A DNA stretch of 64,000 bases from Phlebiopsis flavidoalba (Eukaryota; Basidiomycota; Agaricomycetes; Polyporales; Phanerochaetaceae): contig JAOCPU010000039.1 in the NCBI GenBank assembly GCA_035772785.1, forward strand, positions 1 through 64,000, in the 5' to 3' direction. The translations under genes were made by a program, and so were the position numbers. Shown here piece by piece: positions 3,248 through 62,550 of this stretch (positions are counted from its first letter, which is position 1; every line of letters begins with the position of its first letter). The notes below the pieces were generated by a model that was given only the letters and a program-made list of their open reading frames with translations, made no database searches and was not told where the DNA came from.

Positions 3248-3319
3248 GTCCCCGTAGTTTAATGGTTATGACGTCAGACTTCTAATCTGAAGGCTGTGGT
3301 TCGAGTCCCACCGGGGATG
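3248..3319 (+). tRNA. trnR-UCU: tRNA-Arg (anticodon UCU)
   Basis: A cloverleaf can be drawn. The acceptor stem is GTCCCCG paired with CGGGGAT. The anticodon stem TCAGA/TCTGA encloses the loop CTTCTAA, which gives anticodon TCT reading AGA. The T loop TTCGAGT is intact. The gene lacks an intron and the encoded CCA, as expected in a nucleus. It is 72 nt including the discriminator base, one short of the usual length. The missing base is in the T stem, where GTGG stands opposite CCCAC instead of the expected GTGGG, so a one-base G deletion (sequencing error or mutation) is likely. Confidence 0.9.
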
Positions 3320-3482: not shown

Positions 3483-3905
3483 ATATGTTGCGCTTTGAGT
3501 AACGGGCTCTTCAGGCACTTTGAAAGCCTTTTTTGGTCGCACACCAAGCCAACCAATGATTGAAATCGCCCCTCCATCGTGCCCAGGGCGACAGCGTAGA
3601 CGGCTGGCCAGCCAGCCTTGTCATAAGCGCTGATGATGCATTCGCGGATGCTTCACCACGGGATGGGCTCGAGCAAAACGAGCAAAGTCAACATAAGTGA
3701 TGGTCAATAAATATATATCAACAAGTGGTCAACACGGTGGCTCACCGAGGGCTGTGAGAGTGGACAGCGAGATGCTCAGCTTGAAGCTACTTAGAGACCC
3801 CGGCGCCGGTTAGAGGCCTTCTTGGTGTCCTGGCCTCTGGGAGTGCTATGATGAAACAAGGAGGTTCTCTGGGCTACTTGTAAGCTATATATTATACCTT
3901 CCTGG
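3483..3905. other. Intergenic, nothing recognised
   Basis: No ORF above about 60 codons and no RNA motif is visible. The segment is ordinary mixed composition with one ATAAATATATAT stretch near 3706. Confidence 0.4.
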
Positions 3906-4568
3906 TTGCTTCAAGGGAAGTGCGCACAAGACTTCATTCTGCAACGAGATATGCGACGCGTGTGTATGGACAGCTCACATGGAAAGGTCGTGCTAGAAAT
4001 ACATCATCAAAAATCAATGTCGTCCACAGTCATCACCATCGTCCCCAGTCGTAAAAGCAGAGAGCACCCTCAGCTAAAACTCAGCGTCGCCAGCAGCGCA
4101 AGCAAACACACGCCCCCAGACATGCACTCGCAAACGCCGCGACAGCCACCAGGCAGCGCGCTCCAACGCAAACGCGAGGATGGGCCCAGCAGCGCAAGCA
4201 CAAACCCCGCGACCGATGCCATCCACACCGACAAGCGTGTGGCAGCGCGCGAGCAGGCGCACGGCGGCTCCGCCGCCGTCCCGTCGCGGCGTCGCCCCCC
4301 GCCGACGTGCGCCGCGCGAACAGCGTGCCGCACGGTGTGCACGTACACGCGGCACTCGAACTGCGCGAGCGTGTCGGCCAGCTCTGCAAAGCAGTGCGGC
4401 CGGCGGCCGAGCGGGTGTGGCGAGCGAGCTCGGCAGGTGCGGCGTGGTCGCTTGCGAGGAGATTTTTCCAATTGGCGGGGGAGGGCATGCGTGGGCGGAG
4501 GTGGTGTGCAGTCGCGTCGACTGTGTTGTCGGATGGCGGGTGAACGTGCGAGAGAGCGGAGAAAGTAG
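3906..4568 (+). CDS. Uncertain ORF preceding the poly(A) block
   Basis: A 220-codon frame rich in Ala, Arg, Ser and Cys is open here, but the opposite strand is also open over nearly the whole length (about 4070-4600). The GC-rich sequence gives long frames on both strands and no domain is recognisable. It is placed immediately upstream of the A-rich and poly(A) block, so the two might together be the 3' end of a polyadenylated, retroposed transcript. I saw no obvious target-site duplication around it. Low confidence that either strand is a gene. Confidence 0.15.
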   Translation: MLQGKCAQDFILQRDMRRVCMDSSHGKVVLEIHHQKSMSSTVITIVPSRKSREHPQLKLSVASSASKHTPPDMHSQTPRQPPGSALQRKREDGPSSASTNPATDAIHTDKRVAAREQAHGGSAAVPSRRRPPPTCAARTACRTVCTYTRHSNCASVSASSAKQCGRRPSGCGERARQVRRGRLRGDFSNWRGRACVGGGGVQSRRLCCRMAGERARERRK

Positions 4569-4698
4569 CAATACAGGGTGCGTCGGGTCAGGTTTGTGCC
4601 CGGCGTAAGGTCGGCGGAGTAAGAAAACGTACAACACAAAAAACAAACAAAACCAAAAAAACAACACACAAAAAAAAAAAACAAATAACAAAAAAAAA

Positions 4699-9475
<4,777 letters not shown>

Positions 9476-26220: not shown

Positions 26221-26224
26221 GGCG

Positions 26225-26840
26225 CTAGGTGAAACGCGTCGCGTCGCGACGCGTCGAGAAAGCGTGACACGCGGGCTGACGTTGATTCGCACAAACAAGC
26301 AAAACAAGCAAACATTGCATATATAGCACGACCAGCCTCCTTCGTCTCCTTCACCTGCCCCTCAACACTCCATATCTCTCTCAATGTTTCCTGAGTCGCC
26401 TCGCGACGCAAGCTTGACAAACAGAGGCTGCAGTTGGTGTACCAGCCATACAGCCATCTCTGTCTTCGGGTCACTCTTCCTACGAGACCTCGGCTTCAGA
26501 CACCGGTAGCCGTTGCTCTCGTGTCTAGCGAAGGTTCGCAGAGCGGTGGCGGGGGTTTGCATTCGCACCGAACCGTCGCCGTGCAAGATCTCGCAGGGCG
26601 CCTACGCCTTCACCGCCCCCGTGCTGGACCTGGTGTGCTCATGCGTTGTGTTGTGTTTTTCTCTTTGTGTTGGAGCGCGACGAAGGACGGCGGTAGGGTG
26701 CGTGATCAGACTCTCTTCCAGCGTCATACGAATGGCAGAGAGTCCCTCCAAGACCGCACACCAGACGCAGGTGAGTGTGTGAAGGGCGCATCGCTCCTTG
26801 GCCACGAGGGTAAACCAACACATACCTGGATACGATGATC
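26225..26840 (+). repeat. Dispersed repeat, copy A (promoter/exon-like unit)
   Basis: This is one of four related units in the window. It opens with a CGCGTCGCG-rich box containing the perfect palindrome ACGCGTCGCGACGCGT, then a TATATAGCA-like box, a CT-rich stretch, a conserved TTTGCATTCGCACC segment and a conserved GGCAGAGAGTCCCTCCAAGA block. It closes at a CAG|GTGAGT splice-donor-like site near 26769-26776. It resembles a promoter plus first exon more than a transposon. Copy A lies at the 3' side of F-box copy 1 and is most like copy B. Confidence 0.7.
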
Positions 26841-27030: not shown

Positions 27031-28020
27031 CTACATCGTCGTCAGTCGCCCACTATAACGATTCAATAAGTCAATGATGAGAGAGTAGGTAGCGGCGTAC
27101 TCATTCCATGCACCATCGTCGAATATTATGAGCTCCCGTGTCTTGTCTGGAAACTGACAGGCCGTCGTCATAGCCTTGAACAAGGCACTCCTGGAAGTAA
27201 GCCGAGCAGTGTACTTTGCGTATCGACGGTTATTCAAAGCCTCCTGAAATTCCAGGTCGAAGGAATCATGCATGGTGTTTATAATCGACACGCCGTCTAA
27301 CCAGAGTTCTTCTAGGACAGGTGCTGCTTTCAGTGCCAGCAACGTTGATGGGGGTGATCTCAAAGCTGGGATTATAGTGCACGTATCTCTTGATCGGCGG
27401 ACATGAGTATCGCACAGGTATCGCATGATGTCAAAGGGGGGACATGCTCCCAGCGAGCGCCATTTACCCATTTTGGGCGTACAGCAGCTCGTGTAGCTGT
27501 GAGCTCTGTTTGTTCAGAAACCATCTTCGCGGTCTCTCCTCGATGCACAGCCTGGTAGGGTTAAGGAGGGAAGCGCCTTTTTGATCCCGCAATTGCTGTC
27601 AGAAACGACGCGACCGATATGTTTAGGAATATGGTGTGGAGGTTGGGAGTTGAATTTATAATGGCAGGAAGGTCGCGACCATACCCTCGGGGGTAAGACC
27701 CTCCGAGTAGCTTGAGCTTCTGTACGGCTCGGCCTAACCAGGGTTATGTTCGAAGAGTTTGGCGACGGTCTGTACGTGCGTGGACGGTCCGGAGGGAAAT
27801 TGACTCGTACAGTAGTGGCGAGCCCACGCGCAACCAACGTTTTGAGACTAATAAAACATTATCGCAGCGCTCTGGGCTAGCTGGCTTTGTTTTTTTTTCC
27901 GTGCTAATCGAGGAGGGAGAACGCTAATGGGAAATCTGCAAAAGACATCGTGTGGTACGGCAAAGGTGTACGTGAGTATTTTTCGCGTAACAATTCTTCT
28001 GGCAGCTTCTGTTCTGACAT
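27031..28020 (-). pseudogene. F-box-like protein, decayed copy 1
   Basis: The N terminus MSEQKLPEELLREK at 28020 matches the start of the paralog at 52963 (MSEQRLPEELLREILAYHF), an F-box-type helix. Downstream frames contain the paralogous LGRAV/KLLGG/NLxTI blocks (27514-27837, in shifted frames) and a C-terminal frame (27031-27471) with LKAAPVLEELWLDGVSIINT, matching SALEELWVDSFSMMITLS of the other copy. F-box proteins recruit substrates to SCF ubiquitin ligases. The frame is broken soon after the F-box and again before the C-terminal part, more severely than in copy 2. I therefore call it a probable pseudogene, although sequence errors could contribute. Confidence 0.6.
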
Positions 28021-28122
28021 GGTGGGTTGGCGAGAATGTTGGTGTCGAGTTGAGGTGCGTTTGGGTGTGGTGGAGGCTCCAGCCATGGATGTGAATGACG
28101 CTTGAGAGAGCAGGGGTTTGCT

Positions 28123-48118: not shown

Positions 48119-49040
48119 CTATCGAGAGACTTTGGGCTTTTGTGAAGTCCCACCGGCAGTCTTGCCCTTTCTCTTCCCTTTTGCCACAGGTGGAGGCACT
48201 GGATCTATCGAACCGTTGAACCAACGCTTTCCGCATATACTATCATTTCACAAAGCTAGAACTTACCTCGAGGAGGAGGCGGCACATACTGTATAATCCT
48301 CATCCTGACCCAGGCGCCGCCCCGCGAGGAAGTGTAGGCGGAGGATCCGCCACAATCATTATCTCGGCTTCCTGGGGTTGTACGTCAACTACTAGAGTCC
48401 CTCGTCAACTGTCACGGCAACACTAATCGTAAAGCAAAGAGCGCATGTAACCCACCCCTGGGCCTCACAGCAGACCTCATGACCCGCGTGGAAGGCTCAA
48501 CAGGCTCGGGCGACCGCGGTTGTCTTTTCAACCACGGCTTGGTGCCCTTCGTGAGGTTCCGCATCTGTTGCTTCATCGTCGGCTCCTTGCGCGGGCGGCC
48601 GGGGCGTCCTGGATTCGTTCCTAAAATTTTATCAATATCAGTGGTTGCGAGAGGGAGTGACGCGTACGATTCTGCGGCGGCCAGGTCTACATATCATGAG
48701 GGGGACTCGGAGGTGGAGGGAGAGTCTGTGTGCGAGGCGGGGCTCTGGTTTTCGCTGGGATCATGGTCTACTAGCATTGGCTCGAGTTCGTGTTCAGGCT
48801 TCACAGGGGCGTACAGCCCCGACGCCGCGTCCGCGTCTGCATCGCACTCCAGTTTGACTGCCTCATTATCTCGCTGCATGCCCGCCGCGGAGTCGAGCTC
48901 TGAGGGCTTCACACCGTTACACAAACTCCGAGCTCGCGCAGATGCGACCATCCGCGTCGATTGGCGTCGTACCGGACAGTGTGTGGTGGTTGTAGACAAC
49001 GCAAATTATACAATACACTGTCCATGGTGGTCTCAGATGG
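48119..49040 (-). CDS. AT-hook/SUMO-motif family protein, copy 1
   Basis: The first visible exon (48694-48999) carries VASARARSL, then two SUMO-consensus sites (AVKLECD and PVKPEHE) and a Ser/Asp-rich tail. The next exon, after a TTTTAG acceptor near 48626, encodes NPGRPGRPRKEPTMKQQMRN followed by LTKGTKPWLKRQPRSPEPVE and STRVMRSAVR. GRPGRPRK is an AT-hook-like minor-groove binder. A last exon, joined over an intron with donor near 48270, is basic (PVAKGKRKGKTAGGTS, KPKVSR) and stops at 48119. No frame slip is needed through the AT-hook exon. It is tandem with copy 2 (same strand, about 600 bp apart). The 5' end is not fixed. A nuclear, chromatin-associated role is inferred; no known family was recognised. 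Confidence 0.6.
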
Positions 49041-49059
49041 AGTTGGTGCCGCGTCCAGT

Positions 49060-49640
49060 GAGCGAGCGCGCGTGGTTGATAACCAGATCTAGTCAGCGTA
49101 GGCACGAAACCACTCCGCGCTAAGTACAATTGAACTTGATCGTGGTTTAAAACACACAACACAACAGAAAAAAAGCCTCGCTTCAAAAGCTAAAAAGTAC
49201 ATAGACATAATTATGATACAACTTAGGCAAAAATACCAGGGGGGGGAAAATCATACAAAAGGCACTAAGAAAAAAAAACAAAAATATTACAAAAGAACAC
49301 AATAAGATATACAGGCAAACTGACACTCAAAAAAACATAAAAACAAACACAAACATAATCACAAATAAAAAAAAAAAAAATTCAATACAATTAATAAAAA
49401 ATGGATAAACATTACCACTTTAATAAACCATAATAAACAACAATAGGGGCAACACAACATAACCACAATATAAAAAAATAGCCTCTCGCTTTAGTCGAAA
49501 CACATCCGGCAATGTCAACGAAAAAACACGGGAATGGACTGGTATGGGTGTTCTAACCTGCGATTCATTGGCAAGAAATTCAAAGGTTCAATTAACAAGA
49601 CATCATGAATTCAAGAAAATCACACAGTTTTTGAAGTAAG
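49060..49640. other. Very AT-rich spacer
   Basis: About 500 bp dominated by A with scattered A-runs (for example 49270-49280 and 49367-49380), far richer in AT than the rest of the window. It separates the two tandem AT-hook genes and has no ORF of note. It could hold promoter and terminator sequence for the pair. Confidence 0.7.
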
Positions 49641-49653
49641 AAACGTGAATTCA

Positions 49654-50830
49654 TCATCTACCCGTGAAGCTCAATGGATATCCTGTCGGGAGTATTCCCA
49701 CAAGACCTGAATACTGGGGCCCCCAGTCTCTGTTGATAGTTGGTGGACTGGTTGGACTTTCGCCACAGCAGCTTTCATGCTCTTTGGACATCCTCTGTTC
49801 AGCGACATAGGCGCAGGCGATGGATTCTGCTTGCGCTTGAAGCTTGAACAACCACGCCGAGCACTGTTAATTAAAACTAATACTTACCTCGAGAGGGCGG
49901 CGTGATATATTGGTTGATTCAATTGTAGCAGTCACTTCATGAGGCAGCATGGGAGAAGAAGCATACCGCCACCGCAATCCGATCTCCTGTTTCCTGAGAC
50001 TCTGCGCTGACTGTCAGAGCGTACAACTGATGATTGTGGCGGTCCAATAAAAACACAAATACGCATGCTTACTTCTCATAGCAGATCTCAACACCCGTGT
50101 GGAAGCCTCAACAGCCTCTGGGGACTTCGGTGGTCTCTTCAGCCACGGCTTTGTACCTTTCGTGCGGTTCTGAATCTGCTGCTTAATCGTGAGCGCCTTG
50201 CGTGGGCGACCACGCTTCCCAGGAACCCGCTCCTAGAATTATTTCAAACGCCGGATGCTTACGCTAGCGGCGAGAATACGCACTATTCTGCGTCTGCCGC
50301 GTATGGGCACGATCTCAGGGTGTGGGGCGGAGCTCTTGCCCTGGGGCTCAAGCTTCGCTGCGTCCGCGACAGGCTCTGCCTTCGCCGCATAGTCTAGCGG
50401 TGTCAGAGCGACTGGTTCCAAGTCGGGCTCGGACTTCACCGCGGCATGGTGGAGCTGTGGCAGAGTTTGGCCAAGTCCCGCCTGTGGCATGGGGAAGAGC
50501 GCGCTGGAGCACGCTGCTCTCGTGCTTGTGCTTGATGATGTAGGCAGTGTGGGTCTCGCTAGAACACTGGGCAGGTCGAGGCTCCGTGTCCGCGTCAGGC
50601 TCTGATTTCGCGGTGCCATAGTCTGGCTGCGGTGCCGCCAGGTCGATTGACTCGAAATCAGAGTTCTGGTTTCGTTGTGACACGGGCGTTTTGTGCATTG
50701 CGTCGCGCCTGCGCGAGGAAATGTACTCGCGAGCGCGGGCCACGGATTTGTGCGCTGCGTCGTAGACTGTGACGCGCCCATTTATCAGCTTGCGGCGTCG
50801 TGGTTGCTGTCGCGGTATCTGAATTTACAG
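49654..50830 (-). CDS. AT-hook/SUMO-motif family protein, copy 2
   Basis: From the 5' side the exons encode IPRQQPRRRKLINGRVTVYD, RAREYISSRRRD, TAKSEPDADTEP, then AVKSEPDLEPVALTPLDYAA, KAEPVADAAKLEPQG and PEIVPIRGRRRI. The VKSE site fits the SUMO consensus, and the AKSE/AKAE/AKLE sites are weaker variants. After an intron comes VPGKRGRPRKALTIKQQIQN and RTKGTKPWLKRPPKSPEAVE with an ideal AT-hook core (KRGRPRK). The last exon ends GPQYSGLVGILPTGYPLSF followed by TGR and a stop at 49654. The same order occurs in copy 3. A frame change occurs within the first exon (near 50470), probably an indel error. Its 5' end faces dispersed repeat copy C. Function is unknown; nuclear DNA binding is inferred. 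Confidence 0.65.
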
Positions 50831-50954
50831 TGTTGTGCAGGTTGCAGTAGTACGCATGCAGCTAGCGTAGCCAGTTCGTGGAGTCAGTACCTCGCGCACA
50901 CGTCTGCGTCGAGCTGGAATCAAGTAAGCGTGATGGGGGCTCTGGTCGAGGTGC

Positions 50955-51795
50955 GAATCGTGAGAGGCGCTCCAAGTGGCAATGTCCGCCTCTATATACC
51001 GCGCGTGGATATAAGCGCCAGATCAAACGCGTCGCGTCGCGTCGAGAGAACGTGACGCGCGGCTGACCCGCTGATTCGCGACAAACAAACCAGGGAGGCC
51101 GACCCAGAACCAGCATAAATAGCAACCACCAGCCTCGTTCGCCTCCTCCATCTCCCCCCTCACCTCTCTCCTCCACCCGCTGCCTACCCTTACCCCTTCC
51201 TGCAGCGAGGCGCTTTCTGCCAACGAGAGCACGGCTTCAGCCACCGGTAGTCGTGCTCTCGGGTCCAGCAGCGGCTCGAGCGCGTCACTGGGATTGCATT
51301 CGCCTCGGGCCGCGTGGCCGCGAGGGATGTCGCCGGGCACACACCCCGCCGTCCATCGTGCTGGGCCCATTCATCACGCCGCGTCTTACAAGGATCCCAG
51401 GTCAAACAACGCAGAGGCGTCGAGGCGTATACGCCTTCGCCGCTCTCGTGCCAGGCCCATTTCTATGTCTGCGCTTTTCATCATATTTTCACTCAACATC
51501 GCAGGGCATATACACCCTCGGTGCCCTTGTTCTGTGGGCTTGGCTCGCTGTGCTTATGTCATGTGCTGCTTTCCCTTTGAGGTGTCGGAGCAACAACAAG
51601 TTTGGTGGTCGGGTGCATAGTCGGACTCAACTTAAGCGCCAAATGAAAGGCAGAGAGTTCCTCCAAGACCGCACCCGACGCAGGTGAGTAAACCCCGAGA
51701 GGGCGGGTGCGCCGCTGCTGCGGTGACTCTCCTGGTGCGGACCTTTACGACGGGTCTTGGGGATAAGTACCCCTCTGGATCTTTGGACTCGGGGG
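50955..51795 (+). repeat. Dispersed repeat, copy C
   Basis: It starts at GAGAGGCGCTCC and has a TATATACC sequence, the AAACGCGTCGCGTCGCG box with an ACGCGT core, a CATAAATAGCA TATA-like box about 80 bp later, a pyrimidine-rich tract and the CTGGGATTGCATTCGCCTC segment. The conserved GGCAGAGAGTTCCTCCAAGA block then leads to CAG|GTGAGT near 51685, and the unit ends in GGGGATAAGTACC. It is closely similar along its full length to copy D in the opposite orientation. It sits between AT-hook copy 2 and F-box copy 2. It resembles a promoter plus first exon; no protein family was recognised in its frames. Confidence 0.8.
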
Positions 51796-52043
51796 TGGGA
51801 AGCCGACACGCACCTGAAATCCATCACACAGACGCGGCCTACCAGCATAAATATTATAGCACACCCACCAAGAAAACATTGTGGTTGCTACAATTACACC
51901 TTCAGTCCTGCGAAGAGGGTCATAACGAGGCGAGGAAACAATGAACGAGTGATGACCTACTAATTTCACATGAATGCAGGCTGGATTGTCTTCAATATAA
52001 GGATTCAATAATTTAACAAGGAGATAGTAGTAAGGTGGCGTAC

Positions 52044-52963
52044 CTAGCGTTCTATGTAGTGTTTTTGGTCGTATACTATCAGTTTCTGTACTAGCTCTTT
52101 GGGTAGCTGGAGGTCTGGCAACCGTCGAGCAAGGAATTCAGAGGACTGGCGGACCTCGTAATCCAAGCAGTGTACTGTTTTGCGCAATGATGGTTTGGCC
52201 AAGAGCTCCCGCAGCTCCACGTCGTCGGTGCTCAAAGTGATCATCATTGAGAAGCTATCTACCCAGAGTTCTTCCAGGGCAGATGCTTTCTGCCCAGCAC
52301 CTGCATCATTGGCTTGAGGCGGCAGTCGGGGCCGCAGTGGAGGTATTTTCTTCATTGGTGAGCGTGAGTGTTGCGTGATGTCATTGACAGCAGGACGGAG
52401 AGATGGTTGTGCGCACCAGCAAAGACCATTTGCCTATGTTTGCATCAAGCAGCTCATGCATCTCCAGGTTGTCACTGTACCGTCTCTCCACTCTCTCTTT
52501 TCGATGTACAATCTGGTGGGGTTGAGGATGGGAAGCACCTTCTTGAGTCCGACGATGCTGTCCGACGGCGCCACTGCCATTTGTAAGTAGACAGTGTTGA
52601 GATTGGGAGTGAATGTAACAAGCGAGTAGAGGTCCTGTCCATAGCCTCCGAGTAATTTGAGCGTCCGTACGGCTCGTCCCAGAGCAGGGTTATGCTCAAT
52701 AATGTTGGCAACGGTTTTTGCGTATGCGTGGGAGTCCGGAGAGAAACAGACTCGTACAGCAGTGGCGAGCCCACGCGCAGCCACCGCTTTGAGACCAACA
52801 GAAGACTGTGGCAACGCAGGTCAGCTGGCTCTTGCGTGGTCAAGGCTGCATCTTCTACAAGCCAAAATGGCGCAGCGTATGCGCAAAACACCTCGTGCGA
52901 TATGGCAAAATGGTACGCGAGTATTTCGCGGAGCAGTTCTTCTGGCAGCCTCTGTTCCGACAT
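52044..52963 (-). CDS. F-box-like protein, copy 2
   Basis: The ATG at 52963 opens MSEQRLPEELLREILAYHFA, an F-box-type motif, followed by LLLVSKRWLRVGSPLLYESV, a common post-F-box region. In a shifted frame the protein continues NPALGRAVRTLKLLGGYGQD, YSLVTFTPNLNTVYLQMAVA and LKKVLPILNPTRLYI. A C-terminal frame (52044-52355) has ALEELWVDSFSMMITLSTDD and ends LIVYDQKHYIER. At least one slip near 52745 and one intron or slip near 52440 are needed. It would act as a substrate receptor of an SCF ubiquitin ligase. It is a paralog of the decayed copy at 27031-28020. Better preservation suggests it may be functional, if the indels are errors. Confidence 0.6.
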
Positions 52964-52969
52964 GGCGTG

Positions 52970-53740
52970 TCAGCTTGGATGGCGGTCTCGAGATGGGACG
53001 CGGTGAGTTCTGGTCAAGATGCGAATGGAGACTTGATCGTCCGCCGCCGCCGTGACGACGCCACCTAGCGCGCAGATGGCCATGCTGTGACTAGCTGTGA
53101 CCCTGCCAGACCTGCTGTCACACTAGTCTCATCCCCAGACTCTCTGCCGCCTATGTTTCTGCGCGATAGCGATTCTGTGTGTGCGCTGCGAAGCCTCTCC
53201 CTTGGACCTTGGATGCAAACCGCAAGACGCGGCGGTGGCTTCGTGGCGCAGCTAAAGACCAAGCGCCACGCTCCCCGAGGTATTCCCCGAACGTCTCTCG
53301 TCGAGGGCCCTGCCGTCGTAAAAATCCATTTATTTATGAAAGTGAGTATTTTGACTAATACACAACAAGCGCACATAGGAGCTCCACGCGAGGATCTTTA
53401 CATCGTCAACCGAGACTCTTGACCGCATAGAGTTCAGAGATGTCCTGAGATGTCCTGTGGGATGCTCACGAGGAGTCGCTCGGCAGGCACGGCGCGGCGC
53501 GTCCGAGGCGTGGCGTGGAGTGGGAGCCACAGAAGGCGTCGCGCCGTTCTGTTCGTGCCTGGCGCATACAGTCAGTACACATGGCTGGCAGTGGCCGGGT
53601 GAATTGATTCAGGGGATTTCTGAGGGATTCTGGCTGCAAGGTTTCGTGGCGTTTATACATTGTGTTTTGTGGGTATACAAAAGGGGCGTGGTAGGGTTTG
53701 ATTGGGCACTCGAGAGTGAATAGAAGGAATGGGCGGTGCG
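52970..53740. other. Unassigned region downstream of the F-box start
   Basis: A plus-strand frame (53087-53422) contains a possible intron (GTGAGTATTTTGAC to ACACAACAAG) between VEGPAVVKIHLFMK and IGAPREDLYIVNRDS, but no family is recognised. The remainder has only overlapping ORFs. Confidence 0.3.
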
Positions 53741-53749
53741 TTTGGAGAA

Positions 53750-53880
53750 GCGTGAGCTTGTGGCTGATGCGCGTACACAAAGGCTCCCAGGGTGCGTTCG
53801 AATTCGCCGTGTGTGTGTTGACTCGTGAACTTTGGCGGTCGAGCAAAGCGGAGAGGTATGCACCACGGTTTACGTCGCGG
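53750..53880 (+). repeat. Short dispersed repeat, copy 1
   Basis: The sequence TCGCCGTGTGTGTGTTGACT followed by GGTCGAGCAAAGCGGAGAGG and CACCACGGTTTAC is matched on the minus strand at 59785-59945 with a few substitutions and gaps. No coding content is apparent. Confidence 0.65.
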
Positions 53881-54029
53881 CGAGGTGCCATTACCTGTCG
53901 GAAATGCGGGAGAACCTGTATATAAAAGTCCACAGAGGGGCACGAATTCGCTGAGGTGGGTGGAGGGGAAGGACGAGTTTTCCCCGCGCGTCATTCGCAC
54001 AGGTTCGCACACATTAAAAAAACATCACG

Positions 54030-54645
54030 TCCGCCGATAGAAGCCCACCCACGCGCAACTCTGCGATGCGATGCTGATGCGCATGGAGTACAACACACGT
54101 TCTCGAGCCTGGGTCTTCGCTGAATCGCTCTTGCGCCCTCGAACTCAGGCGGCCGAGCGAGGCGTCCCCCGCGCCCCTCGACGAGTGAATGGAATACAGG
54201 TCCTGTGCGTCCCCGCCGATCGAAGTTTATGCGCAAGAGGGGCGTTCGGCTTCCCCTCGCGTAGGAAAGTTCGCTCCTGGAGCAGCGAGTGCGTGTGGCG
54301 ACGCATCGAAGAGCCTACTCCGTGACGACGAATAGGGGCAGCTTCAGTGTAACCACCTTCCGCGGCAGAGCGGAACAGAGCATAGATAGGCACCGTACAT
54401 TCTTTTCGTCCTCGCGATAGAAGCCTGCGCATGAAATGGTGACCTCCCATCGCGTAGATGAGTTTCCCCATTATCTGCATCCTGGGGCGGCCAGTACGTG
54501 TACCGACCTGCTTCGCGGCGACGAACAGGGGCCGTCGCGTTCCGCGGGAGAGCGGAACAAGAGCCTAGATAGGCACGTACGTTCTGTTCGTACCCCCCGC
54601 GATAGAAGCCACCCCGCGGGCGCGATGCTGATGCGCATGCACTCG
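54030..54645 (+). repeat. Tandem-type repeat array, three partial units
   Basis: Units at about 54030-54095, 54325-54430 and 54515-54645 share CGATAGAAGCC, and two of them share GATGCTGATGCGCATG. The second and third also share GACGAA(T/C)AGGGGC, AGAGCGGAACA and TAGATAGGCAC in the same order. It looks like a degenerate tandem repeat of about 190 bp. No gene is seen in it. Confidence 0.6.
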
Positions 54646-54775
54646 TGTAGCGGTGGCCGGGCTCCCATGCTCCCCCGCCGTTCGTCTTTCCGGCGAGTAG
54701 GTGGCCACACAGACTATATAGGGACGTTGAGAGGATGTGTATTCGGCAGTTTGAAAGCCAGCTTCGTGGCGGGGA

Positions 54776-55740
54776 TCAAGGCCCGAGAAAGAAGAGGCTA
54801 AATATGGCGCTAAGGGCAACAGGTAGCTTGGGCGGGCGAGCGGCGTACAGCAGGCGGAAGTCGGGCATCTGCTTTCGCGCGTGATTAATAGGGCGTGGGA
54901 GCAAGATACGAGGCGCACCTCGAACGCCAGCCGTTCCGTGCGGGGTGTCATGCAACATTTGAACGTTGGGGGCGTCGGCGCGCGCAGCGGTGGGACGCGT
55001 TTCGCGTCGTGGTCGTCCGTACGCGACTCGGACGCGCTGTGTGGGCCAGAACGACGCGCGCGCAGGCTTGCGACGACACGCGTGGCTGCGCGCCGATCGT
55101 GCTGGCGAACGCGGTGTGCGTCGTGGCCGCTGCGATGAGATCTGATCGCCGCCGCGCGGCGTGCCTCCGCCTCGCGCGCGATACGTTGCGTGCTGGGCGT
55201 TGCTTCCAGGAATGGTCGCGTTATGTATCAGCCCTCGTGCCAGTGCTGTGAAAGCTGGCTTGGAAGTTGTACAGGGTCCTCGCAGCGCAGAGATACGGTC
55301 GTGGGCGTGTTTGCGCACGTTCGCGGGGTGGCCAAGCACGCTCGGGGCGCGGTGTCGTCGGCGACGAGTGCGAGGGCGACGGAGGACGAGGGCTGCCATT
55401 GCGGGACGGGCGTGTTATCTGATGAGGATCCGTGCCGGGGGGGTGGAAGCACAGCATCAGAGCTGGCGTCAGTGGCGTTCAGCAGGCGGCCAGCGCGTAC
55501 GGCGCACTCGACGAGGGCCACAGCCTGCAGCGCTCCGAGGCGGCCACAGCCGTGCATGTACGTACAGGCCAGCGCGAGGGAAGAGAATGCGCATCGTCTG
55601 AATTGTTTCGGCGAGCAGTGAAGGCAGGGGTGGGAACGGGATCAGTGGGCGTCGGCCGGGAACACGGCGCGAGAAGTGGGACGTTCTCGGACGCAGCCAC
55701 CGTCTGCGGCCATGGCCTCTGAGAGAGCAAGCAGCTGCGA
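54776..55740 (-). CDS. Uncertain GC-rich minus-strand gene
   Basis: Two adjoining minus-strand frames look mildly coding: 55479-55730 (SRPTPTDPVPTPAFTARRNN) and 55228-55557, which begins with a helix-like segment (GRLGALQAVALVECAVRAGR) followed by a disordered Ser/Thr region. The frame 54776-55399 overlaps. The GC content keeps all six frames open, so this evidence is weak. No domain is recognised. The plus strand (55190-55621) is a comparable alternative. Confidence 0.2.
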
Positions 55741-56290
55741 GCATGCGCCCTTCTCTGATTTTTTCGCCACCCGCCTCGCCATCACCGCAGGAGGCTGCCA
55801 CGCTCACAGCCGTCCTCGGCATCGCGCCCACCCACATCGCCATCCACTCGTCCTGCCTCCCAACGCACCTTGGCTCCTGCCCCCCACCCCAGCCCGCCGC
55901 GACGATCCCTCCTCAACCTCGCTGCCCGCAGCGTCGATCGCACGCGTATCCGTTTTTCTTGCACCCTGAGCAAAGCGACGTCCATAGCCTCTGTCCAGGC
56001 CTCGCCTGAGCCGTCCTACCCTAAGCGTCACCGACCGCACCGCACGTGCATGGCTGCCTGAACGCCCTCCTGGTGCGTCAATTTCCCGAGCTGCCAGCCT
56101 GCTTCTGCCGGTCGGACGCACTCACTGACTCTTCTCTCATCCTCCCCCCTCCGTCTCTGCGCAGGTCGCACCAACGATTCTCTCCCCCGTCGGGCACACA
56201 CCCTCTCCTCGGTGAGCCTCCTACCAGACCCGCCAGCCTCCCGCAGGGCCCTCCTACCAATTTCCTCCCGAACCCGAACACCTTATCACA
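55741..56290. other. Upstream region of the second RhoGEF
   Basis: A pyrimidine-rich plus strand (55790-56290) with many CCTC and CACC runs is typical of a fungal promoter/5' UTR. No separate gene is supported. Confidence 0.4.
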
Positions 56291-59200
56291 ATGCAAGTCC
56301 TCCCGCAACCCGCCCTCCCATCCCCGCGCCGCCCCGCGCCCTCGCTCCTCGACCGGCGCCCCTCGGCCCAAAAACTCCTCGCCCCGCCGCCGCCGCCCGC
56401 CCCGCGCACGTTCGTGCCCCTCACGCCCATCATCGCCTCCCCGCGCATGACGCCGCCCCTGCGCGTCCTCCCCTCCTCTTCCTCCTCTGCAATCGTCGTT
56501 ACCCGCGAGTGGTAGTAGTTGGGAGTGGGAGTAGTGGAGGGGGAGATTATTTGACGCGCGCGGTACACCCTTGTGGACGTCACCTGAACCCGCCGACGCC
56601 CCCGCCGGCGCGCGCGCCTCGTGCTCCCGCCGCGGGAGAGGCGCACGCGCGTGCCGAGTGTGTCGCTGGAGGATGCGAGGGGTGTGGGGGAGTGGAGGGG
56701 GGGCGTGAAGAGGAGGAGGACTATGCCGGAGGGGTTGGTTGCGGAGGTTGCTTCTCTCGTCAAGCAGGAGCAAGAGCAAGAGCAGAAAGGGGAAGAGGAG
56801 GAGGGGAAGGAAGAAGAGGAAGGGGAGGGAAGGGAAGGGGGAGAAGAGGAGAGGAGGGGAGAGGAAGGAGAAGGATTTTATGCTTGGGGACGAGGAGGAT
56901 GAAGATGAGGAGAGCGCGGTGTCTACGCCTCCGGTGAGCCTCGATGCGGAGGCGCGCGCGAGCGTGCGGCGGTATCATGCGCTGCTTGAGCTGCTCACGA
57001 CGGACGGGGTTGGGTATGTGCTCGATTTGGCGGGTGCTAGTCTCGGTGCGTACTATTTCTTACTCCTCACCTTTGTCAATCCCTTTCATTTCTTCTACCC
57101 TTGTCTATCCCGCATCTCGCTTCTACACCTCTCATCTCCCGCTTCGTTTATTCCCGCGAATATATGCGCATATACTGACTCCGTCACCAGATATACCTCG
57201 CCCAGCTAGAAACATAACAGCCCCACCACCACCACTCTCCGCCCCTCGCCTTCCTCACTCGCAATATCTACGCTCTCCCACATACGCGAGCGCCCGACGA
57301 GCGTCACGCACGTCCGCCTGACGCCTCCGCACTTGCGGACGCTACCAATACCCACGCCGCCGCCAATACGAACCACGACCGAGAAAAAAACACCACGAAA
57401 ACACTAAAGACAGAGAGAAGGAGAGGGAGCGCGAGAAGGAGAAGGGATAGGCCGCTCTTCCCGCCACCCGTCCGCGCCACTATCGCGCGCAACGCGCCTG
57501 CGCTGCTCGCGGCGCACGAGCGGCTCGCACGGCGTCTCGCGCGCGCCCTCAAGGGCGCGGGTACGCGTCGCTCTTCCGGCCACTACACTCACCCTCGGAG
57601 CCCTCGGAAGCCGAACACGAACACGAAGACGAGGACCGGCGGATCGGCGAGATCGATGAGGCGCTCGCGGCGGTGGTGGGCGTGTACCTCGGCGAGGTGG
57701 AGGGCCTGCAGATCTACGACGCGTACTGCCCGTTCCAGACCCGACGCGGCGGACGCGATCCGCGCGGTGCAGGACGCGCACCCCGCGGCGTGGGACGCGT
57801 ACGAGGCGCGCTGCGCCGGCCTCGCCGTGGGCCTCCTCTCCCCCGTGTCCCTCCCTTCTCCCCTTCCTCGGAGGGAGAGGGCGGGGAAGGGGAAGGGGAA
57901 AGCGAGCAGCACGCACAGGCGCGCCGCCTCCGCGCGCTCGACTACCTCATCAAGCCCGTGCAGCGCCTCTGCAAGTACGCGCTGCTCCTCGACGGCGCGG
58001 GCGCGCGCGGCGCGGGGGACGTGTTCCGCGCGCTGGTCGAGCGCGTAAAACCGCGTCGGCGCGACGGCGGTGCTGGCGCGCGCGGCGCGGCGTGTGCAGG
58101 AGCGGCAGCCTGGTCCTTGCCGGAGGCGCTCCCCGTGGAGTACGTGGGTGCGCTCGGTGCGTGTCTCCTCGTGGGGCCGTTGGAGGTTGTGTATGCGCAG
58201 CGGACGCGGTATCTCGCGGCGTTTTTGTATGTTGGGGGGTATGTGCTTCTTGCGAAGGTGCCCAAGGGTGGGAGGTATGAGGTCCGGCATTTGGTTTTTC
58301 GCTGCAGGGGGCTTGTCGTTGCGGATGAGGCCGAGGACGAGCATGGTGAGTGCCCTGCACATCTCTCAGAGCTGAGGCTGATAGTGAACAGCGGAGCTCC
58401 CCGCACGCGTGTCCACCTGTACAACGCCGCACCCACATCCACCTCGCCGCCTGCAGCGCGCCCGAAAAAGCCATCTGGCTCCTCGCCCCTCCGCAGCGCG
58501 CTCTCCTCGCCGCCTCCCGTCCCGCTCCCTCTCCGCTCCCCCTGTACGACACCGATCCTTCCCCTCGTCCTCACCATCGCCCTCGCCAGACGACCCGCCC
58601 ACAGATACCCCCAGCCGCCCCCTCGCATTAGCGCGGTTCGACCCGCACAATCCGCGCCTCCGTCAAGGCCTTCTTCACGCCGCACCACAAGCCGCGCCGG
58701 CGCCGCCCGCCCGCGCAGGGCGTCGGACGCCGCGCTCGCCGACGTGTTTCTCCGAGCCGATCGCGGCTGCTGCCGTGCGGAAAGGGCGCCGCCCGCGCCG
58801 CGCCGTGCGCTCAAGGCCTTCGCACCCCGGAGGCGACTTCGAGAGTCTGGTGCCCGAGCGGAGTGGGCGACGGAGCCGCCGCCGCCGCCGTCTTCCCGCG
58901 CCGCCGAGTGCGCCGCCGAGTCCGGGGAAGGGAGGAGGACGCCGCAGAGGACGAGGAGTCTGGTGGATAATGTGCGTTTCGTTGTTCCATGTGCGCGCTC
59001 CCCCGCCGAGCCGGTGTCGGCGGGCAGCAAGCAGTCTCGCGCCGTCCCCGAGTCCGAGTTTGGCTGCCCTCCGGCCCGAGTCCCGAGTTGTCGCGAGTGC
59101 GGCAAGCGGAGAGCGCTGGTGGCGGAGAGGCTCGCTCCGGCGCAGGGTACAGAGCTCGCCGGACGTGCCGCACGGACGAGGACGAGGACGAAGAGGCGAA

Positions 59201-59614
59201 GCCCCCGTGATGCGGCGCCGCTCGCTGTTCGTGAGCTCGCTCTCGGCGGCGGCGCTCGAGGGCGGGGCGAAGGTGCAGCGCCGCCGCTCGTTGTGTTGTC
59301 AGTTCGCGTCGGTGGGTGTGTGGAGGAGCAGGTAGAGGCGAAGGTGCGGAGGCGCGGGAGCGTGTTTGGTGCGGTGTCGCAGGGAGGGGAGCAGGCGACG
59401 CTGGGGCGGAGGGGGACGTTGCGGGGTCTGTTGGGGCTGCAGGAGGGGCAGCTCGGCGTCGTCGTCGCCTACGTCGGCTCTCTGCCTCTTCCGCCGCGTG
59501 AGCCTCCACTCCATTCTTTTATCTCGATTCTTTTCATATATTAGCGTTGTAATTACATATACGTCTGTCTGTGTCTTTTCTCTCTCTGATATTTCTTTCA
59601 TAGACTATTCGTAG
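56291..59614 (+). CDS. DH-PH guanine nucleotide exchange factor for Rho GTPases (2)
   Basis: The ATG at 56291 opens a Pro/Ser-rich leader (LPQPALPSPRRPAPSLLDRR). A Glu/Lys-rich stretch (56760-56890) precedes the DH domain: SLDAEARASVRRYHALLELL, then after a long intron (about 57044-57185) segments with ARNAPALLAAHERLARRLAR, RIGEIDEALAAVVGVYLGEV and AVQDAHPAAWDAYEARCAG. The CR3 signature is ALDYLIKPVQRLCKYALLLD. A PH-like region follows (YLAAFLYVGGYVLLAKVPKG, IHLAACSAPEKAIWLLAPP), and the C terminus is Arg/Ser-rich with repeated RRRS/RRGS motifs. A small last exon (DYS) after an intron would end at 59614; otherwise the frame stops at 59542. GC-rich codons and several one-base slips (near 57720, 57850 and 58045) obscure the frame. 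It is a distinct gene from the RhoGEF at 42.6-47.3 kb. Confidence 0.72.
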
Positions 59615-59784
59615 CATTTTTTGTGTATTTGTATGCCACATCGCGTCCCGTTTGTGCATCCAGAAGATTACTAGATATACCCACTCCCGCATGTACCACT
59701 ACAAGTTTCGGTTCTGTACACGATTTGCACATACATAATATCTCGTTTCCGGTCTCTTGCATATCGTTGTCCGCGGCAAGGTGT

Positions 59785-59945
59785 TCTCCAGTGGCGTGCC
59801 GTGCTTCGGTAAATCGTGGTGTGTGCCTCGCTGCTTTGCTCGACCGGCCGCAGTTCACATCGAGTCAATACGCACGGCGACTGTACAATAGAGGGACCGA
59901 CAGAAAGACACATGCAGTAGGGGCGCGAATGAGCCATCAGCCAAT
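59785..59945 (-). repeat. Short dispersed repeat, copy 2
   Basis: This is the inverted counterpart of the repeat at 53750-53880, sharing TTGACTCG, GGTCGAGCAAAGC and CACCACG(A/G)TTTAC in the same order. The surrounding 59615-60100 holds no recognisable gene. Confidence 0.6.
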
Positions 59946-60149
59946 AGAAGCACAGCGCTAATGGCGCGGAGGTCCCGCTCGGCAACAAGCGGAGCGGGCG
60001 AGAAGGAACCCCTAACGGTCTCCGTTCTTGATTGAAGTTCAACTTTTGTAGCTGAGATCCTCCAAACCTTTGGTCAGTGACCCGCGTGCGAGGTACTAAC
60101 CGTATAGCTGATTATGCTAATCACACACATAGTGATATACTCAGTGCCT

Positions 60150-61342
60150 ACACAACCCGTGAATTCAAACACGCCGCGGCAACAACCACGACGCCGCGAG
60201 GCTGGCAAATGGGTGCGTCGCAGTCTACATCGCAACGCACGAACCTGTGGGCCCGCGCGCGAGCACATTGCCCCACGCAAGCGCAATAAATGTACAAAAT
60301 GTCCTTGTTATAACAAAGCCAAAACCCGACTCCGAGTCAGTTGTCCCGACACCGCATGCAGACGGTGGCACCGTGAAATCAGAGCCCGACACGGATACCA
60401 AGCCTCGGCTGCTCAGTGCTCCAGCGAGGCCCGCGCTCTCTGCATCACCAAGCACAAGCACGGGAGTAGCACGCTCCAGCGCTCTACCCGATGCAGGCGG
60501 AACGTGGTCAGACTCTGCACAATTCCACCGTGCCGCGCGGTGAAGCCCGAGCCCAACTACGAACTCGTCGCCCCGACACTGCCAGATCACGCAGTGAAAC
60601 CAGAGCCTGGCGCAGACGCGGGGCTGCGACCGCTCGCCGCCGTAGTGAAGCTTGAACCCCAACGCGAGAGCCCCGCCGCATACCCTGAAATCGTTTCCAA
60701 GCGCGGCAGACGCAGAGTAGCGGGTAATTTCATGCCAGCGTAAGCACTATGAATTGAGATGATATTAGGAGCGGATTCCTGGGAAGCCCGGTCGCCCACG
60801 CATGTCGAGGCCCACCGTTAAGCAGCAGATTAAGAATCGCACGGTAGGCACAAAGCCGTGGCTGAAGAGACTGCCGAAATCTCCGGACGCTATTAAGCCT
60901 TCCACGCGCGTGTTACGGTCTGCTACGAGAAGTAAGCGTGTACATTTTATGTTCCTTTTTCGAAAATATTAGCAGCGGGACCGCTCTGACAGTCACGCAG
61001 AGTTGCAGGAAACAGGAAATGAAACTGCAGGATCGGATACTTCTCCGCCCAGGTCGTCTTACGAAGTGACCTCAGAGTCTGAAATAGGAACAGCACAAGA
61101 TATGACATCTTCGCCTCAAGGTCAGTCTCACTTACATATAACAGTGCCCCTCGCGGTCGATCAAGCCTAAACAGAATCCACTGCCTACAATGTCGGTGAA
61201 GCGAGGACGGCCAAAGAAGAAGACCACCGTAGCGAAAGTCCAACCCAGTCCACCAACCATTGACAGAGACCGGGGCCTGCAGTATTCAGGTCTTGTGGGG
61301 ATCCTTCCGACAGGATATCCGTCGAGCTTCACGGGTAGATGA
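60150..61342 (+). CDS. AT-hook/SUMO-motif family protein, copy 3
   Basis: A conserved intron precedes the first visible exon (donor near 60096 in GTGCGAGGTACTAAC, matching copy 2). The exon starts TPRQQPRRRE and carries TVKSEPDTD, AVKPEPNYEL, AVKPEPGAD and VVKLEPQRES, four canonical VKxE SUMO sites, then PEIVSKRGRRRVAG. The next exon has IPGKPGRPRMSRPTVKQQIK, NRTVGTKPWLKRLPKSPDAI and STRVLRSATR. The third exon is acidic Ser/Thr-rich (SYEVTSESEIGTAQDM). The last has a second AT-hook (SVKRGRPKKKTTVAK) and ends RDRGLQYSGLVGILPTGYPS with SFTGR before the stop at 61342. The organisation parallels copy 2. A slip or frame switch near 60540 is required. Nuclear, chromatin-related function is inferred; the family is unrecognised. 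Confidence 0.68.
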
Positions 61343-61734
61343 TTGATTCGCGTTTTTCTTCGAGAACTGCGTGATATTCCGGAATTTATGCTCTACATTA
61401 TCTTGTTAATCAGCTTTCCGCACTCTTGCCGGTGAATAGTAGCGGAAGTGACTATTCCACCCTCTTCTCACACAGAGACAATCGTCCCAGCACGAGGGCG
61501 ACAAAGGCGCATACGCACGACAATATTGGATGAAAGATGCCAGGCTCAGGTGAAAGGAGCGAGCCCAGCGCGAGGGCGGTGGAGGTCTACCACGCCGAAC
61601 GACATGCCGCATCTCACTGCACATGTCAACTGCTTCAGCTGGGCGCGGCCCAGAACCTAGACGTGATATGTATGCTAGGTTGCGCTGTCCGTGTAACGAA
61701 TTCAGGCGCGTGTTGGTTTCCCCTCGAGTCTAAA

Positions 61735-62550
61735 GACCCAAAGGTACTTATCCCCGGGACCACGTAAAGGTCCGCACCAGGACAGTCATCGCCGCAGCGA
61801 CACCCGCCCTCCTCGGGGGTTACTCACCTGCGTCGGGTGCGGTCTTGGAGGAACTCTCTGCCTTTCATTTGGCGCTTGAGTTGAGTCCGACGATGCACCC
61901 GACCACCGAGTTCGTCGTCGTTCCGACCTAAAGAGAAGACAACACATGACATAAGTACAGCGGGCCAAGGCCGGAACAAGGACACCGAGGGGGTGTATAC
62001 CCTGCGATGTTGAGCGAAAGGTAAAAAGCGCAGACATAGAAATGGGCCTGGCACGAGAGCGGCGAAGGCGTATACGCCTCGACGCCCTCTGCCTTGTTGG
62101 CCGAGTCGGATTCTTGTAAGACGCGGGTGTGATGAATGGGCCCAGCACGATGGACGGTGGGGGGTGTGCGCCAGAGACATTCCTCACCGCCACGGCCCGA
62201 GGCGAATGCAATCCCAGTGACGCTCTCGAGCCGCTGCTGAGCCCGAGAGCACGACTACCGGTGGCTGAAGTCGTACTCTCGTTGGCAGAAAGCGCTTCGC
62301 TGCAGGAAAGACAAAGGATAGGCAGCGAGGTGGAGGAGAGAGGTGAAGGGGAGATGGAGGAGGCGAACGAGGCTGGTGGTGCTATTTATGCTGTTTCTGG
62401 ATCGGCCTTTCTGGGTTGTTGGTTGCGAATCAACGGTCATCAGCCGCGCGTCACGTTTTCTCGACGCGACGCGACGCGTTTGATCTGGCGCTTATATCCA
62501 CGGCGCGATATATGGGTGGCGGGGAGCGCCTCTCCTGAGCTCTCTCCACT
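61735..62550 (-). repeat. Dispersed repeat, copy D
   Basis: Read on the minus strand it repeats copy C almost segment for segment: GAGAGGCGCTCC, the AAACGCGTCGCGTCGCG box, CATAAATAGCA, the pyrimidine tract, CTGGGATTGCATTCGCCTC, GGCAGAGAGTTCCTCCAAGA, CAG|GTGAGT near 61826 and GGGGATAAGTACC. It lies just downstream of AT-hook copy 3 in the convergent orientation. It is presumably a promoter/first-exon unit, or a transposable element of unknown class. Confidence 0.8.

Follow-up and report, generated by a model that had tools for sequence, protein, structure and literature searches.

A cluster of three AT-hook paralogues with a conserved pair of K-x-E motifs in the fungus Phlebiopsis flavidoalba

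Introduction

AT-hook motifs bind the minor groove of AT-rich DNA. The HMGA proteins, which carry several of them, are small and have an acidic C-terminal tail. SUMO acceptor sites have the consensus psi-K-x-E, and synergy control motifs follow the spacing rule P-x(0-4)-[IV]KxE-x(0-3)-P. An excerpt of one report presents synergy control motifs as SUMO motifs that have proline or glycine on their flanks and restrict activity on promoters with several response elements (PMC3554661). The same effect is described for steroid receptors in part of another report (PMC3373386), and a further excerpt treats the NDSM, a SUMO motif dependent on acidic residues (PMC3395311). Here, we describe three clustered AT-hook genes (copies 1 to 3) of the basidiomycete Phlebiopsis flavidoalba, located within positions 1 to 64,000 of contig JAOCPU010000039.1 (C39:1-64000). 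This 64,000-nucleotide (nt) stretch, hereafter the window, belongs to an assembly of 36,283,335 bases in 129 contigs. A preliminary description had proposed that the three genes form an unrecognised family in which AT-hooks are combined with repeated SUMO-consensus motifs.

Results

Sequence comparisons indicate that the three AT-hook genes are a genuine orphan paralogue trio, defined by a conserved AT-hook exon and a conserved K-x-E pair. The shared exon, exon B, has ~53 codons that encode an AT-hook followed by KQQ..N.T.GTKPWLK and STRVxRSA. All of these elements, reported earlier with the ending STRV(M/L)RSA, are present in the three aligned exons, where 31 of 55 columns are invariant (including KQQ, N, T, GTKPWLKR, STRV, and RSA). 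A G-R-P core with basic flanks occurs in exon B of every copy (Table 1) and in a further hook of copy 3, KRGRPKKK.

The family appears to be confined to this cluster within the assembly. When exon B of copy 3 was used as a protein query against the whole assembly, three places were found, all inside the window: 48463-48618(-), 50071-50232(-), and 60769-60933(+). All three candidates were scored, and these counts are lower bounds. A degenerate DNA pattern for GTKPWLK, searched across the assembly with at most one mismatch, recovered the same three places, all as exact matches, against one match for the reversed-pattern control. Alignment, protein search, and pattern search thus agree with the original claim that three copies share one exon. 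The K-x-E segment of copy 2 and the last exon of copy 3, used as further queries, matched copies 2 and 3 only (E up to 5).

Neutral simulations rarely reached the amino acid identity seen in exon B: 0/2000 for copies 1 and 2, 1/2000 for copies 1 and 3, and 31/2000 for copies 2 and 3. The corresponding Nei–Gojobori (NG86) omega values were 0.19, 0.23, and 0.40 (~0.24, ~0.26, and ~0.34 in a first pass with a slightly different alignment). The constraint test omitted the one inserted codon of copy 3 and the copy 1 codons before PG. These comparisons indicate that exon B is conserved as a protein in the pairs that include copy 1. An AlphaFold model of exon B from the three sequences had a mean predicted local distance difference test (pLDDT) score of 65.2 and a predicted template modeling (pTM) score of 0.25, with helices at 16-24, 29-32, and 46-52. 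Such a low-confidence model, with short helices only, fits a mostly disordered peptide, and a fold search with it returned no PDB matches at E ≤ 10. Next to the AT-hook, KQQ..GTKPWLK..STRVxRSA is probably a contact surface made up of a short helix-forming stretch.

The K-x-E motifs are non-random and their spacing is conserved. Repeated VKxE(P) motifs had been reported upstream of exon B in each copy, and the counts stand: in any frame, psi-K-x-E occurs four times in copy 3, twice in copy 1, and once in copy 2, which has three AKxEP motifs in addition. What did not stand is the fourth motif of copy 3 as part of one array. The motifs at 60540, 60594, and 60645 share a frame that the one at 60373 does not, and its counterpart in copy 2 is likewise out of frame; our scan with a branch-site rule listed no intron that would join the fourth copy 3 motif to the others. 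A fourth tandem SUMO site in copy 3 is therefore not accepted as demonstrated. Within-segment shuffles matched the psi-K-x-E count in 0/100,000 trials for copy 3, at 0.0007 for copy 1, and at 0.078 for copy 2, which by itself is not significant. The six frames of the 64 kb contain 35 psiKxE, 5 psiKxEP, and 8 [VA]KxEP matches, and all of the latter two sets lie inside copies 2 and 3. Since these copies are duplicates, the eight [VA]KxEP matches represent four sites rather than eight independent ones.

The comparison with copy 1 is the most informative: a distance of exactly 54 nt (18 residues) separates sites 1 and 2 in every copy. Among shuffles of the copy 1 segment, 7 of 200,000 had two such motifs 18 residues apart. 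Within a 30-column ungapped block around the pair, seven columns are invariant, five of them among the six V/K/E columns, and four of these five show synonymous codon differences; this block is anchored on the motif, so the case is somewhat overstated. Both sites fit the psi-K-x-E consensus in copies 1 and 3, while the second site of copy 2 has alanine for psi. Between copies 2 and 3, the K, E, and P codons of the three in-frame sites are kept in 9/9 cases versus 22/42 elsewhere (P 0.0066; unpartnered codons, two of copy 2 and ten of copy 3, were dropped). The conserved K and E and the fixed spacing suggest that these motifs are probably SUMO acceptors.

Copies 2 and 3 share a C-terminal block of 31 codons ending QYSGLVGILPTGYPxSFTGR-stop. 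It has 12 changes between the copies, eight of them at third positions, with an omega of 0.14, and its identity was reached in 17/2000 neutral simulations; on these grounds the block is probably coding. It was not seen in copy 1. The earlier claim of a common C-terminal block thus holds for the shared sequence, stop included, and fails for the frame, which in copy 2 is broken upstream of the block (Table 1): the last exon of copy 3 splits into two pieces when matched to copy 2, each in its own frame, the second with E 0.034. The preliminary description had missed the further canonical AT-hook of copy 3, KRGRPKKK (~61199-61222), which lies in the same open frame as the block. The aligned place is degenerate in the other copies (RGCPKSMK in copy 2 and GKRKGK in copy 1).

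Candidate introns were taken from a GT-AG consensus scan with a branch-site rule, applied to sequence only. In each copy, exon B is followed by a candidate intron with a branch-like site, and the three introns lie at closely matching positions of the alignment. Upstream of exon B, such an intron is listed for copy 1 alone; the GTGCGT donor of copy 2 is not accompanied by a site fitting the branch rule, and the donor of copy 3 is weak. The K-x-E segment of copy 2 sits in an open reading frame (ORF) open from an ATG at 50781. A possible alternative N-terminus of copies 2 and 3, MGASQST(T/S)QRTN(P/L)W, has 2, 1, and 7 changes by codon position (P 0.038 in this short block; P 0.156 in a longer one).

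No Pfam model names the family, and the GTKPWLK module matches no named domain there: nothing scored above the cut-off in eight ORFs or three hand-spliced proteins. It is in this respect unrecognised, as first proposed. Scans of viral and prokaryote contigs gave 72 and 152 pattern matches, respectively, with no relative among them, as expected of a eukaryotic family. Among the papers listed for AT-hooks, SUMO, basidiomycetes, and fungal HMGA, none concerns such a family, judged by titles and abstract openings. The trio is probably ordinary in kind, comprising small chromatin-binding proteins, and unnamed in the collections searched.

Table 1. Features of the three AT-hook genes and of the adjoining repeat (window positions unless a contig is named).
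Feature	Position	Strand	Basis or remark
Copy 1 open segment with two VKxE sites (V codons 48858, 48804)	48700..48939	-	motif scan, spacing
Copy 1 candidate intron 1, GTACGC..TTTTAG, 47 nt, branch-like TTGAT	48621..48667	-	consensus scan
Copy 1 exon B, AT-hook GRPGRPRK + KQQ..N.T.GTKPWLK + STRVMRSA	48456..48620	-	limits given by the candidate introns
Copy 1 candidate intron 2, GTGGGT..CCCCAG, 84 nt	48372..48455	-	consensus scan
Copy 2 segment with AVKSEP, AAKAEP, AAKLEP, ending RGRRRI at GTGCGT donor	50284..50442	-	motif scan, shuffles
Copy 2 exon B, AT-hook GKRGRPRK + GTKPWLK module	50073..50232	-	search, alignment, neutral simulation
Copy 2 candidate intron 2, GTAAGC, branch CTGAC, four possible acceptors	50002..50072	-	consensus scan
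Copy 2 C-terminal block, probably coding, SPPTINRDWGPQYSGLVGILPTGYPLSFTGR-stop, out of frame with sequence directly upstream	49654..49749	-	translation, search, simulation
Copy 3 fourth motif TVKSEP, different frame from the other three	60370..60387	+	motif scan
Copy 3 segment with AVKPEP, AVKPEP, VVKLEP, ending RGRRRV	60537..60719	+	motif scan, shuffles
Copy 3 exon B, AT-hook GKPGRPRM + GTKPWLK module	60769..60931	+	search, alignment, neutral simulation
Copy 3 candidate intron 2, GTAAGC..ACGCAG, branch CTGAC	60932..61000	+	consensus scan
Copy 3 last exon ORF, AT-hook KRGRPKKK, then C-terminal block (61247-61342) ending QYSGLVGILPTGYPSSFTGR-stop	61142..61342	+	
X element, ~860 bp	50994-51854, 61666-62513	inverted orientation	86% identical, beside copies 2 and 3; gene order permuted
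X-like partial copies	26222-26776; contig C18, two places (L010 ~3649-4707, L011 ~4253-5809)		

Duplicated genes form a local cluster in this region, which suits a fast turnover of the AT-hook trio. One end of a low-copy repeated element, X, has a conserved stretch in which ACGCGT and CGCGTCG repeats accompany a TATA-like sequence and a pyrimidine-rich leader, and a donor-like site, GCAG|GTGAGT, is conserved close to the opposite end; the interior of X is variable, with repeats on C18, and no coherent coding frame was noticed. The window copies of X had no Rfam match. X might represent either a non-coding RNA that is spliced or a repeat of the non-autonomous kind. Duplication of X and the AT-hook gene as one unit was considered and rejected, since the gene order differs. 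Near X lie three F-box-like paralogues with ~69% DNA identity, at 27202-28052, 52162-52998, and ~65.2-66.05 kb of the contig (L012 1228-2049); the two of the three that were scanned with Pfam both fell below the cut-off. Between copies 1 and 2 is a strongly A-rich stretch (~49150-49480; 49300-49599 has GC 0.31 and AT skew 0.44). Other features comprise a RhoGEF-like ORF at 57451-59541 (below the Pfam cut-off), an exon for a MutL C-terminal domain near the cluster (L012 5714-6196; above the Pfam cut-off), and a tRNA gene at 3248-3319 of the window (Rfam tRNA). The apparent short introns and the ORFs resembling F-box and RhoGEF genes would by themselves suggest a fungus, probably a basidiomycete.

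Discussion

We put a probability of about 45% on the three clustered paralogues being a small family that evolves fast, may be restricted to one lineage, and encodes short, mostly disordered nuclear AT-hook proteins regulated by SUMO. Paralogy, conservation of exon B at the protein level, and the conserved K-x-E pair are the established parts of this reading. The presence of an AT-hook exon and a matched pair of possible SUMO sites suggests that the products are probably small chromatin proteins; the genes would be transcribed and spliced, and the proteins would enter the nucleus, bind DNA, and be sumoylated, with an effect on their activity.

Several results weigh against this reading. Under the splice rules used, no continuous spliced frame from the K-x-E segment to a stop was found in any copy. 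Copies 2 and 3 were scanned in three frames over the 24 aligned blocks that reach 20 nt (five shorter blocks omitted), and three of these 72 tests gave P < 0.05, no more than chance expects. These three are exon B, the C-terminal block, and a different frame of the VKxE exon, and the coding case therefore rests mainly on the comparisons with copy 1. Across the whole VKxE exon of copies 2 and 3, the identity of 0.608 over 51 aligned codons is close to the neutral mean of 0.592 (P 0.43), and another frame of the exon's second part scores better (P 0.017). At the K-x-E sites of copy 2, psi is alanine in three of four cases, the fourth site included.

The database searches belong on the same side. 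A large protein collection, whose fungal coverage is untested, gave no homologue, a result that does not imply absence elsewhere. The queries were a 227-amino acid hand-joined protein, its exon B region, and a three-ORF alignment (A4); they gave 561, 1, and 593 word-sharing candidates and no match at E up to 0.1, 1, and 1, respectively. The best score against the Pfam AT_hook model PF02178 was 13.3 bits (copy 2 ORF), versus a curated cut-off of 17.4; copies 1 and 3 and all hand-spliced proteins had no AT_hook match in Pfam. This 13-position model gave no match over the cut-off in the whole genome, and two below it, elsewhere than the trio. The Pfam test for AT-hooks is thus insensitive here.

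The three genes might instead be decaying duplicates, an explanation that we consider rather unlikely. Exon B would then have been selected in the past, the present copies, or at least copy 2, would be pseudogenes, and the VKxE arrays of copies 2 and 3 would be relics. Decay would account for the several single-base gaps that separate copies 2 and 3 over the N-terminal region and exon C, for the out-of-frame C-terminal block of copy 2, for the lack of constraint across the VKxE exon as a whole, and for the K-x-E segment of copy 1 having no consistent splice phase into exon B. However, exon B is open in all three copies, although a stop arises in 56-68% of the neutral simulations run at equal distances. 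The single-base breaks may, moreover, be assembly errors. In a polyubiquitin gene on contig C5 (L021), the frame switches inside ubiquitin repeats that are otherwise highly conserved: it changes between residues 1-38 and residues 33-65, residues 44-64 are matched at 100% in a frame other than that of the longer 71% match spanning them, and in one ORF in-frame ubiquitin pieces are separated by an off-frame stretch. Introns could explain some of these switches, though hardly the one at 44-64; a decayed gene copy could also be involved. The window itself contains an uninterrupted 693-nt poly(A) run (4701-5393), probably an assembly artefact. The polyubiquitin switches and the poly(A) run are what uncorrected indels would leave. 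Frame breaks in the AT-hook genes are thus no proof of decay, and those breaks need checking in the assembly before any copy is called a pseudogene.

Less probable again, and unlikely in our view, is that the VKxE motifs belong to a charged, proline-rich disordered tail (e.g., an activation or linker segment) and are not SUMO acceptors, which would leave the AT-hook module as the only part with a defined function. The alanines of copy 2, at sites where K, E, and P are kept, point to a conserved core of K-x-E(-P) rather than psi-K-x-E, and psi is kept at only one of the three in-frame sites of copies 2 and 3. The whole-exon omega of 0.59 for these copies is also what such a tail might show. Yet the residues that are kept, K and E, are those that define a SUMO acceptor, and V is retained at five of six paired sites over the three copies. 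The tandem SUMO array that had been put forward as a family trait is not upheld, given that only two sites are common to all copies, that psi is mostly alanine in copy 2, and that the exon as a whole is not constrained at the protein level between copies 2 and 3. It is very improbable that the AT-hook genes were carried by, or are left over from, a mobile element that includes X. In favour of this, X copies with 86% identity adjoin copies 2 and 3, and similar pieces occur again at 26222-26776 and twice on C18; against it, gene and X stand in a different order beside copies 2 and 3, and the searches found exon B at none of the three remaining X places.

If the trio does encode SUMO-regulated AT-hook proteins, the AT-hook would anchor each protein in the minor groove of AT-rich DNA; in copy 3, two GRP hooks and a basic RGRRR before exon B would add to this anchoring. 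The two N-terminal K-x-E sites, 18 residues apart in each copy, would probably serve as SUMO acceptors, and SUMO conjugation would damp or gather activity where several molecules occupy DNA. Prolines on both sides of three sites in copy 3 give these a resemblance to synergy control SUMO motifs. The genome has one match to the MIZ-finger over the Pfam cut-off, with SUMO E3 ligases (PIAS2, PIAS3, and SIZ1) as the nearest PDB chains. Ten matches to Rad60-SLD were found: those on C5 (four) and C6 (two) are polyubiquitin-like, one on C62 is 60% identical to ubiquitin, one on C35 has ubiquitin as its nearest PDB chain, and the others are on C43 and C19. These matches did not identify SUMO itself, those on C43 and C19 being outside the examination.

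The preliminary description went further and cast the proteins as multivalent chromatin hubs, which they might conceivably be. In a bolder reading, which we regard as unlikely, the family would be a lineage-specific chromatin family that keeps a few short motifs in otherwise freely drifting sequence: an AT-hook with a new contact module (GTKPWLK), and a SUMO pair at fixed spacing that acts as a bivalent handle, such that bound copies build a SUMO-dense platform on AT-rich DNA. If the family is real, it would give a clean test of how two short motifs, the AT-hook and the paired SUMO sites, can persist in a disordered chromatin protein whose remaining sequence drifts, with three paralogues to compare, one of them having mostly alanine at the hydrophobic positions.

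Compared with HMGA proteins, the trio is similarly small and probably disordered, and copy 3 has more than one AT-hook (GKPGRPR and KRGRPKKK) as well as the basic RGRRR. In contrast, copies 1 and 2 have one canonical hook each. The trio also lacks an acidic C-terminal tail, copies 2 and 3 ending in QYSGLVGILPTGYPxSFTGR, and has the GTKPWLK module and N-terminal K-x-E sites instead. All three copies share with Pfam AT_hook the GRP core flanked by basic residues, although their best score falls under its curated cut-off. As in synergy control motifs, a proline precedes the V by 4-5 residues and another immediately follows the E at three VKxE sites of copy 3; copies 1 and 2 fit less well, and the trio has no nuclear-receptor or other known DNA-binding domain. 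The acidic residues that follow site 1 of copies 1 and 2 may, by analogy, resemble an NDSM.

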